Origin: an uncultured Sphingomonadales bacterium
GTDB taxonomy: Bacteria > Pseudomonadota > Alphaproteobacteria > Sphingomonadales > Sphingomonadaceae
DNA: 58,180 bases
Direction: 5' to 3'
Assembly: GCA_903848655.1 (NCBI GenBank)
Contig: CAINGT010000049.1
Coordinates: 1 to 58,180, forward strand
In this document: positions 12,678 through 58,180 of the stretch, in pieces
How positions within the stretch are numbered: position 1 is the stretch's first letter
Layout of the letters: every line of letters starts with the position of its first letter
The notes under the pieces: generated by a model
The model's database searches: none
Told to the model about the DNA's origin: nothing
Seen by the model: only the letters and a program-made list of their open reading frames with translations
Made by a program: the position numbers and the translations under genes

Positions 12678-12800
12678 TAGCGTGATGCGAAAAAGTGGGA
12701 ACCGGTTTTTACCTTCGGTGGACTGCGGCTCGCAATAAATCACGCGAAAACAAAGACTCTAGAACGGAATGCGATTCAATCTCATCGCATCACGCTCTAG
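12678..12800 (+). repeat. Palindromic intergenic element, copy 1 (one arm)
   Basis: 123 bp. Order: TAGCGTGATGCG, AAAAAGTGGGAACCGGTTTTT core, one 20-nt arm ACCTTCGGTGGACTGCGGCT, CGCAATAAATCACGCG, linker GAAAACAAAGACTCTAGA, then a second hairpin CGGAATGCGATT...ATCGCATCACG with mismatched arms. Lies between convergent mmcB and the pyrC-like gene. The terminal TAG on the minus strand is that gene's stop codon. Confidence 0.92.
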
Positions 12801-23051: not shown

Positions 23052-23177
23052 TTAGAGCGGAATGCGATTAGATTGAATCGCACTCCGCTCTAGAGTCATT
23101 GTTTTCGCGTGATTTATTGCGAGCCGCAGGCCACCGAAGGTAAAAACCGGTTCCCACTTTTTCGCATCACGCTCTAA
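23052..23177 (-). repeat. Palindromic intergenic element, copy 2 (one arm)
   Basis: 126 bp in reverse orientation relative to copy 1. It holds the second hairpin (AGAGCGGAATGCGATT paired with AATCGCACTCCGCTCT), the linker, and the GTGGGAACCGG core with one arm of the C-type (GGTGGCCTGCGG). It fills the gap between convergent SDR and comM genes, and comM ends with the element's terminal TAG. Confidence 0.92.
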
Positions 23178-33749: not shown

Positions 33750-33851
33750 AGCGTGATGCGAAAAAGTGGGAACCGGTTTTTCGCAATAAATCACGCGAAA
33801 ACAAAAACTCTACAGCGTGATGCGATTCGATTTAATCGCATCACGCGATAG
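33747..33851 (+). repeat. Palindromic intergenic element, copy 3 (no arms)
   Basis: 105 bp, the simplest form. TAGAGCGTGATGCG, then AAAAAGTGGGAACCGGTTTTT directly joined to CGCAATAAATCACGCG with no 20-nt arm, a linker, and a second hairpin whose arms are both of the GTGATGCG type. Located between convergent ihfB and hslU; ihfB ends on its terminal TAG. Confidence 0.92.
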
Positions 33852-48979: not shown

Positions 48980-49058
48980 AAGCCAAACCCGCCCGCTTGG
49001 GTAGCCCATGGCAAAACCGGCTCGCCCTCGCCCACCAATTCGCTTATGGGCCATGCCC

Positions 49059-50267
49059 ATGAAACGCACGACAGGTCAGGACCGCTCGATCACCCGCCAC
49101 TGGCGCCCCTCCACCCAGGCCGTGCGCGGCGGGACATGGCGGTCTGAAATGGGTGAAACGAGCGAGGCGCTGTTCCTTACATCGGGCTATTGCTACGACG
49201 ATGCCGCGACGGTGGCCGCACGCTTTGCCGGTGAAGCCGACGGGATGACGTATTCGCGGGTGCAAAACCCGACGGTGCAGATGCTCGAAGACCGCATCGC
49301 CTTGCTCGAAGGGGCGCAAGCCTGCCGCGCGCAAGCCAGCGGCATGGCGGCGATGACCACCGCGCTGTTGTGCCAATTGTCGGCGGGCGATCATATCGTC
49401 GCCGCCAAAGCCGCGTTCGGATCGTGCCGCTGGCTGGTGGACAATCTGCTGCCGCGCTTTGGCATTTCCGGCACCACGATCAACGCTTGCGACAATGATG
49501 CCTGGGCCGCAGCAATCCGCCCCAATACCAAAGTGTTCTTCTTTGAAAGCCCGGCCAACCCGACAATGGATGTGGTCGATCTGGAATTCATCTGCACGCT
49601 GGCGCGCGAACACGGCATTATCACCGTGGTGGACAATGCCTTTGCCACCAGCGCGCTGCAAAAACCGCTGGAATTCGGCGCCGATGTGGTGGCTTATTCG
49701 GCCACCAAGATGATGGACGGCCAAGGCCGGGTGCTCGCGGGCGCGGTTTGCGGTTCGGCGTCGTTCATCAACGATGTGCTGCTGCCGTTTCAGCGCAACA
49801 CCGGGCCGAATATCGCCCCGTTCAACGCATGGGTGGTGCTCAAAGGGCTGGAAACGCTCGATCTGCGGATTTTCCGCCAGAGCGAAAATGCGCTGAAAGT
49901 CGCGACATTTCTCGAAGGCCGGGTGCCGCGCGTGCTCTATCCTTATCTCCCCAGCCATCCGCAGTATGCGCTCGCGCGCAAGCAGATGAAGGCGGGCGGA
50001 TCGATCCTGTCAATCGAGCTCGCCGGTGGCCGCGCCGAAGCGCACGCGCTGCTCGATGCGCTGCGCTTGGTCGATATTTCCAACAATATCGGCGATTCGC
50101 GCTCGCTGATGTGCCACCCCGCCTCATCCACCCACCACGGCGTCGGGCCCGAAACCCGCGCCGACATGGGCGTGGGCGAAAACCTGCTACGGCTGAACGT
50201 CGGGCTGGAAGACGCGGATGACGTGATCGACGATCTCGATCAGGCCTTGCGCGCGGTCGGATTATAG
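49059..50267 (+). CDS. metZ: O-succinylhomoserine sulfhydrylase
   Basis: 402 aa from ATG 49059. PLP enzyme of the Cys/Met metabolism family making homocysteine from O-succinylhomoserine and sulfide. Conserved features: TYSRVQNPTVQMLEDRIALLEGA, the PLP-binding Lys in VAYSATKMMDGQGRVLAGAV, and SSTHHGVGPE near the C-terminus. MetZ rather than MetB/MetC is favoured by the KMMDGQGR segment and overall similarity. The stop TAG is formed by the end of repeat copy 4. Confidence 0.93.
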   Translation: MKRTTGQDRSITRHWRPSTQAVRGGTWRSEMGETSEALFLTSGYCYDDAATVAARFAGEADGMTYSRVQNPTVQMLEDRIALLEGAQACRAQASGMAAMTTALLCQLSAGDHIVAAKAAFGSCRWLVDNLLPRFGISGTTINACDNDAWAAAIRPNTKVFFFESPANPTMDVVDLEFICTLAREHGIITVVDNAFATSALQKPLEFGADVVAYSATKMMDGQGRVLAGAVCGSASFINDVLLPFQRNTGPNIAPFNAWVVLKGLETLDLRIFRQSENALKVATFLEGRVPRVLYPYLPSHPQYALARKQMKAGGSILSIELAGGRAEAHALLDALRLVDISNNIGDSRSLMCHPASSTHHGVGPETRADMGVGENLLRLNVGLEDADDVIDDLDQALRAVGL

Positions 50268-50408
50268 CGGAATGCGATTAGATTGAATCGCATTCCGCTA
50301 TAGAGTCTTTGTTTTCGCGTGATTTATTGCGAGCCGCAGTCCACCGAAGGTAAAAACCGGTTCCCACTTTTTACCTTCGGTGGACTGCGGCTCGCATCAC
50401 GCTCGATA
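50265..50408 (-). repeat. Palindromic intergenic element, copy 4 (two arms)
   Basis: About 144 bp, reverse orientation. The core CCGGTTCCCAC is flanked on both sides by the 20-nt arm, both with the T/A variant (GGTGGACTGCGG and its complement), giving a near-perfect hairpin of about 30 bp per side. The second hairpin has matched GGAATGCGATT arms. Located between convergent metZ and the helical-repeat gene; metZ ends on its TAG. Confidence 0.93.
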
Positions 50409-58087: not shown

Positions 58088-58180
58088 TTAGAGCGTGATG
58101 CGAGCCGCAGGCCACCGAAGGTAAAAAGTGGGAACCGGTTTTTACCTTCGGTGGCCTGCGGCTCGCAATAAATCACGCGA
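58088..58180 (+). repeat. Palindromic intergenic element, copy 5 (two arms, truncated by window end)
   Basis: TTAGAGCGTGATGCG, then arm, AAAAAGTGGGAACCGGTTTTT, arm, CGCAATAAATCACGCGA, with the second hairpin beyond the window. Both arms are of the G/C type (GGTGGCCTGCGG and its complement), matching each other but differing from copy 4. It begins 16 bp after the dnaN stop. Confidence 0.92.

Follow-up and report, generated by a model that had tools for sequence, protein, structure and literature searches.

A 20-nucleotide double mini-hairpin, a candidate mobile insert of Novosphingobium, and the lengthened stem of a dispersed hairpin repeat

The 20-nt arms that lengthen the stem of a dispersed palindromic repeat in one Novosphingobium genome are copies of a separate insert that is present in other loci, a fact not visible from the contig on which the arms were noticed. 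This insert is itself more unusual than the matching of the arms, which had been the subject of an earlier note on the same DNA. At the level of sequence, several hosts are shown to contain the 20-mer as a unit; that the hairpin in question (H1) gained it in this lineage is strongly suggested. We consider it probable that the system is nested, with a 20-nt insert residing in a two-hairpin repeat (H1-H2) and the second arm arising mainly by copying between the palindrome halves. More tentatively, we propose that the 20-nt double mini-hairpin may itself be a mobile DNA insert, perhaps smaller than any known so far, a reading that we hold to be a real possibility while leaning slightly against it. 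Across Novosphingobium, such an insert would enter the T-loops of tRNAs, genes for transposases, and palindromic repeats at exact positions; where the empty sites are clear, it would mostly go in between a T and a C, without a target duplication of 2 or more bases. It would be removed from or tolerated in RNA, and in one species it would have colonized a 200-copy hairpin and lengthened its stem.

The window, i.e., the whole stretch of DNA analyzed (58,180 nt), is one entire contig (G000:C49) of a genome of 2.95 Mb in 145 contigs that is 97.2% complete. The window contains five occurrences of the 15-nt core GTGGGAACCGGTTTT, versus 0.08 expected by chance, and six of the 20-nt arm. Searches with core and arm confirmed the five hairpin copies that the earlier note had described, along with their positions and the number and type of arms in each, the type being named after a variable base at position 12 of the arm. 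Oriented on the core, with the GGTTTTT side as the right, copies 1 and 2 have a right arm only, copy 3 has none, copy 4 is A/A, and copy 5 is C/C; the last stops 17 nt short of the contig end, and its right flank is absent. At the gathering score, Rfam 15 offers no family for the hairpin and gives only two tRNAs in the window. The features are as follows.

12690..12710, plus strand: H1 core (AAAAAGTGGGAACCGGTTTTT) of copy 1, a core match
12711..12730, plus strand: right arm of copy 1 (20-nt insert, A type; no left arm), an arm match
23142..23162, minus strand: H1 core of copy 2, a core match
23122..23141, minus strand: right arm of copy 2 (C type; no left arm), an arm match
33761..33781, plus strand: H1 core of copy 3, armless and read as the ancestral form, a core match
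50352..50372, minus strand: H1 core of copy 4, a core match
50332..50351, minus strand: right arm of copy 4 (A type), an arm match
50373..50392, plus strand: left arm of copy 4 (A type; same insert, other strand), an arm match
50263..50302, minus strand: H2, the second hairpin of copy 4, which contains GAATC (a GANTC site) and extends over the TAG stop codon (50265-50267) that ends the ORF at 49008-50267
58123..58143, plus strand: H1 core of copy 5, close to the contig end, a core match
58103..58122, minus strand: left arm of copy 5 (C type), an arm match
58144..58163, plus strand: right arm of copy 5 (C type), an arm match

A pattern search that asked for neither flanking base recovered 174 matches to the 20-mer in the source genome versus 44 in 35 of 194 congeners, some of the latter looking coding and possibly being due to chance (the reversed-pattern control gave 9). 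The relaxed form ACCTNCGGTSGNCTNCGGCTC, allowed one mismatch and, as in one further search, required to be followed by the C, has 53 matches in 19 of the 194 congeners and 161 in the source genome, against 6 in all for its reversed pattern. At one mismatch, the 20-mer is absent from the 95 genome_contigs loci examined (747 kb, mostly Bosea).

Several of the congener matches interrupt recognizable genes. A tRNA-Leu(TAA) gene in one genome (G003, locus L264) and a tRNA gene with a CAT anticodon in another (G195, locus L276) are each interrupted by the 20-mer at the T-loop/T-stem junction; the latter is read as Ile2, its ARAGORN label being Met. ARAGORN detected the neighboring intact tRNA in both genomes and missed the interrupted one in both, while the CAT tRNA is detected in each of nine versions from which 18 to 22 nt were removed. 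The two genomes each have one member of the same tRNA pair interrupted. A tRNA-shaped pattern gave no match in viral contigs. In G167, the 20-mer splits one codon of an IS3 orfB. The two flanks are open throughout the roughly 100 codons examined on each side and bear HTH_21 and rve domains, and when they are aligned with the pCAR3 plasmid's IS3 transposase, a gap of exactly 20 nt with clean edges remains. An IS3 orfA in the viral contig IMGVR_UViG_3300048597_000643 is likewise split by it, at the codon that follows MKRSRF; a relative on plasmid pDC03 is 20 nt shorter, in an alignment less clean than the one with pCAR3. The insert shifts the frame in the IS3 genes.

The remaining hosts are palindromes. 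In G082, the 20-mer lies inside a REP-like palindrome, REP-C (GTTT|CAGG), of which G065 has the empty form and to which plasmids have no match; in G094, two copies lie in a palindrome related to it. In G065, G196, and G207, the 20-mer occupies the loop of CCCTCTCCC...GGGGAGAGGG, for which no exact empty partner was present among the genus loci examined. Removal of exactly 20 nt restores the empty site, over the stretch compared, in the tRNA-Leu gene, REP-C, and H1. Each of these three exact filled/empty pairs leaves a single ambiguous base, the same T in all, and none has a target duplication of 2 or more bases. For the CAT tRNA, filled and empty forms are 20 nt apart in length but are also unlike at two bases of the loop. 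T precedes the insert and C follows it in H1, the tRNA-Leu gene, both IS3 genes, and the palindromes of G082, G094, G065, G196, and G207; for the CAT tRNA and two large repeat families, the preceding base is G. The flanks of 63 congener contexts comprise 46 of the form G..C and 12 of the form T..C. As to what moves the 20-mer, our guess is that it might be a single-stranded DNA or hairpin-based reaction.

Other matches were set aside. Two in viral contigs (L467 and L468) resemble coding sequence that stays in frame, and a third (L434) also looks coding; all are probably due to chance. The G010/G092 and TTCGACAAGC families were rejected as proof of insertion, as the 20-mer may be native there and no exact empty partner was found. 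In the TTCGACAAGCTCAG repeat family (L465, G156, G148, and G175), a G-type 20-mer, GACCTNCGGTCGCCTTCGGCT, is present in many copies and absent from others. A literature search, which is weak evidence of absence because subscription journals were mostly outside its reach, returned nothing on the H1 or 20-mer sequence or on such tRNA inserts.

The insert has the form ACC-TNC-GGT-G-GCC-TNC-GGC-T and is readable as two successive mini-hairpins with TNC loops. Among 59 congener 20-mers, several of which belong to the same repeat families, only the positions left free by the search pattern, which fixed most, are informative: pair 2-8 is CG in 53, GC in 5, and GG in 1, a compensated change; position 12, opposite G18, is C in 49, T in 8, and A in 2; only 45 have a standard pair at 1-9; and the loop positions 5 and 15 are variable. 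A or G occupies position 12 in 33 of 124 H1 arms, versus 2 of the 59 20-mers from elsewhere (P = 9e-5). This weaker constraint would be expected in H1 where the arm pairs with its partner arm instead.

The full host element consists of two hairpins, H1 (TAGAGCGTGATGCG-AAAAAGTGGGAACCGGTTTTT-CGCAATAAATCACGCG) and H2 (e.g., TAGAGCGGAATGCGATTCAATCTAATCGCATTCCGCTCTA), the second with GANTC in 97 of 123 copies that have a recognizable H2 start (a raw count, without a chance control). Among the matches listed, the unarmed core occurs in Bosea, Methylocystis, Devosia, Caulobacteraceae, Sphingomonas, Novosphingobium, and others, and unarmed H1 is present in 24 of 119 Novosphingobium genomes, the source genome counted. 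The host hairpin is an old, widespread alphaproteobacterial intergenic repeat. Its outer stem is kept (at least 6 of 7 pairs, scored as the best of nine offsets with G-T pairs allowed) in 130 of 136 distinct H1 copies outside the source genome; left sides re-paired with right sides of other stem types gave a mean of 37.9 and a maximum of 52 paired out of 136. None of these 136 copies carries the 20-nt insert on either side, an armlessness that is partly built in, since most were retrieved with the unarmed pattern. Better tests of the restriction of armed H1 are a search for arm plus core, which had no exact match in genome_contigs, and the 63 congener contexts of the 20-mer, none of which has an H1 core beside it. 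The armed element also has no match in plasmids. On the sequences searched, then, armed H1 was found only in the source genome. The proposal of the earlier note that an arm was gained at a fixed place is upheld, because the unarmed hairpin is widespread while the armed one was found only here.

In the relatives' loci examined, the orthologous region aligns across the upstream gene at 71-82% identity, and 29 congener loci scanned there contained no H1 other than one chance-like match (L227). As a candidate mover, the Y1 transposase domain (PF01797) was sought in the source genome and has no match there, at a completeness of 97.2%; 5 of 14 control genomes were positive. The left-edge TAG of the repeat closes an open frame of at least 100 codons in 25 of 83 source-genome copies, versus 281 of 2267 control-locus TAGs (P = 2e-5). 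Tandem arrays in which H1 units recur every 60 to 64 nt are present at L176 (from C25:30374 on), at L044 (C47), and in C76. Congeners can have their own compensated H1 stem, GCGC...GCGC in 23 of 23 copies in G188 and GCC...GGC in 13 of 16 in G010 (among the matches listed); hence, the H1 copies of any one genome seem to undergo concerted evolution. In the 111 unarmed H1 copies of the source genome, the outer triplet pair is GCG/CGC in 71, GCA/TGC in 21, GCG/TGC in 8, and GCA/CGC in none. Only one of the two strands therefore tolerates the G-T mismatch, a hint that the repeat functions as RNA or as one strand of DNA.

In the source genome, 219 distinct contexts yielded 203 complete copies, the 16 cut by contig ends being left out; a looser rule gives 262 core matches, and some copies are therefore unclassed. 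Among the 203, 111 are armless, 34 have only a right arm, 18 have only a left arm, and 40 have two. The growth series 0, 1, 2 read from the window is thus present there and incomplete genome-wide, given the 18 left-only copies. Two-arm copies number 40 versus 21.1 expected under independent halves (Fisher P = 2e-9) and, among interior copies, which lie wholly within contigs, 21 versus 10.8 (P = 5e-5), with P values that are only a guide, as copies are related by descent and the 40 include four duplicates. This excess could also be explained by the descent of ready-made two-arm copies. From the 174 matches in this genome, 126 distinct arm contexts were examined, most of them reached via the core, and all 124 that were testable lie inside H1, two of them in what we read as decayed H1; there, therefore, the 20-mer seems to travel with the repeat. 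A further search for arms without a preceding T run, which is blind to arms preceded by TTT elsewhere, found one, and it adjoins a core.

The two arms of a copy match more often than chance would have it and by no means always. With four duplicates from forked contig ends (L025, L027, L029, and L162) dropped, 36 two-arm copies were compared, and at position 12 they are C/C in 22, A/A in 4, G/G in 1, A/C in 3, C/A in 3, C/T in 2, and T/C in 1. Arms had been said to be identical within a copy; at this base, that holds for 27 of the 36, versus 20.9 by shuffling (P = 0.005). The other 9 differ at the variable base, so that mismatched two-arm copies, named beforehand as what would speak against the reading, exist in some number. 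The prediction that A/C copies should never occur fails, with 6 of the 36 being A/C or C/A and 3 more pairing T with C. Among interior two-arm copies, 12 of 21 match versus 10.0 expected (P = 0.20), and where either arm has a base other than C, 5 of 14 do. Contig-end copies are enriched in C/C, the commonest form, probably because identical repeats break assemblies, and the true matching rate may lie between those of the all-copy and interior-copy tests.

Over all 20 positions of the 36 copies, departures from the consensus are one-sided in 22 cases and shared in 7. Two copies have a private arm haplotype on both sides, G12 in one (C75:12264) and G5 with A12 in the other (C82:39493). Both haplotypes are absent from the other 122 arms counted, and shuffling of the 124 arms gives P = 0.0007, for positions 5 and 12 chosen after looking. 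Some arms were therefore copied within a copy. The private changes are transversions on both sides, without a wobble intermediate, and template copying makes such two-sided transversions in one step. Away from position 12, there are 17 departures in the 72 arms of two-arm copies versus 22 in 52 single arms (one-sided P = 0.048), which hints weakly that they are maintained or are younger.

These figures also bear on selection for an RNA hairpin, under which compensatory mutation would keep the arms paired. The covariation of the outer stem across taxa (130 of 136 versus 37.9 when mixed), an outer triplet matched in 92 of the 111 unarmed copies versus 60.9 expected, and the fewer departures in two-arm copies are all what such selection would produce. 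However, the changes in two-arm copies are mostly one-sided, and the shared private ones lack the wobble intermediate, and we regard this explanation as quite improbable. Another explanation follows from the symmetry of H1, which offers TTTTT|CGC on both strands, so that a second insertion could take place independently of the first: the 20-mer would enter this site on either strand, and left and right arms would be separate events. The status of the 20-mer as an independent unit in other hosts agrees with this, as do the presence of all four arm classes and the chance-level matching of interior arms. Yet two-arm copies are twice as common as it predicts, private haplotypes stand on both sides of two copies, the 124 testable arms (including the two in decayed H1) all lie in H1, and the only T-run-free arm found genome-wide adjoins a core; two independent insertions thus appear unlikely to us.

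Some copies are chimeras of others. In the copy at C15:13694, the left half corresponds to the right half, turned around, of an armed element of A type, H2 included; it is joined at the core to an unarmed C-type right half, making the copy a chimera of the right-right kind. Two further copies have a right half on the left, and five are left-left. Left arms can therefore derive from the right half of another copy. In addition, some unarmed and two-arm units of this genome stand next to each other as tandem pairs. Such joining at the core is what would be seen if a two-arm founder had arisen once and spread, with one-arm copies being its recombinants with unarmed copies at the 21-nt core. The mixed A/C copies fit exchange of this sort, and left-only copies often have TGC on the right (9 of 18), which some unarmed copies bear too. 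Against this, right-only copies (34) exceed left-only ones (18), GCA is on the left in just 2 of the 34 right-only copies compared with those 9 of 18 (P = 0.0005), and the private cis haplotypes require an extra step. Descent from such a founder is in our judgment doubtful, if somewhat less so than independent insertion.

We therefore return to the nested system. The 20-mer would have entered the H1 stem in this Novosphingobium lineage and multiplied with the repeat, probably entering the right half first, because right-only copies are the commoner. The other half would have been reached chiefly through copying from one palindrome half to the other. In at least 2 copies, this would have happened in cis, through a template switch or the repair of a folded strand; in others, it would have happened in trans, through an inverted exchange at the core that dispersed copies share. 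Such copying would be only occasional, because changes on one side are more numerous than those on both. There is support both for occasional copying inside a copy and for exchange from copy to copy, and the first interpretation of the window is partly supported. Its templated copying of an arm to the other half agrees with the two private haplotypes and the excess of two-arm copies; interior matching near chance, the 22 one-sided against 7 shared changes, and a left arm at C15:13694 that is the inverted right half of another copy do not.

If the exact 20-nt inserts in tRNA and transposase genes, with their visible empty sites, are what they seem, they represent a mobile unit much smaller than transposable elements usually are, and, if the 20-mer is mobile, its mode of movement and possible excision from RNA become direct questions. 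With about 200 copies in one genome, stem growth, copying in cis, and exchange in trans between palindrome halves can be counted. The armed hairpin bears on the origin of long hairpins and the persistence of their matching.

Several known systems offer partial parallels. Like a MITE or an insertion sequence, the 20-mer is precisely inserted with an empty site (tRNA-Leu, REP-C, and H1; orfB versus pCAR3), but it lacks a target duplication of 2 or more bases. REP/REPIN elements are short dispersed palindromic repeats that form clusters and tandem pairs and are associated with a RAYT transposase. H1 is of similar size and is likewise palindromic, dispersed, and found in clusters and tandem pairs; in contrast, no Y1 (TnpA_REP) domain was found in the source genome, and the 20-mer forms exact inserts in genes with empty sites. 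The mobile translational bypassing elements of mitochondria are, similarly, tiny inserts inside genes, whereas the 20-mer is also present in bacterial tRNA genes and intergenic repeats. The Rickettsia palindromic elements, in the available part of their description, are small palindromic inserts within genes, about 150 bp long, containing a reading frame and mostly in frame (PMC10969869); the present insert shares the first property, but it is 20 nt long and shifts the frame in IS3 genes. The CIR or CcrM-associated repeats are intergenic, alphaproteobacterial, and associated with methylation sites, and the same partial account mentions no inserted arm (PMC10969869); the GANTC in H2 is the point of likeness, in a comparison by description rather than by consensus. 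Finally, template switching at quasipalindromes is described as making reverse-complement copies, creating stems, and repairing their pairing (PMC8794818). Correction in H1 differs from this in being incomplete, with 9 of 36 copies mismatched, and in being accompanied by exchange between copies. Nonetheless, quasipalindrome correction, so described, fits the two private haplotypes on both sides of H1 copies and is the known counterpart of the step by which an arm would be copied to the other half (PMC8794818).
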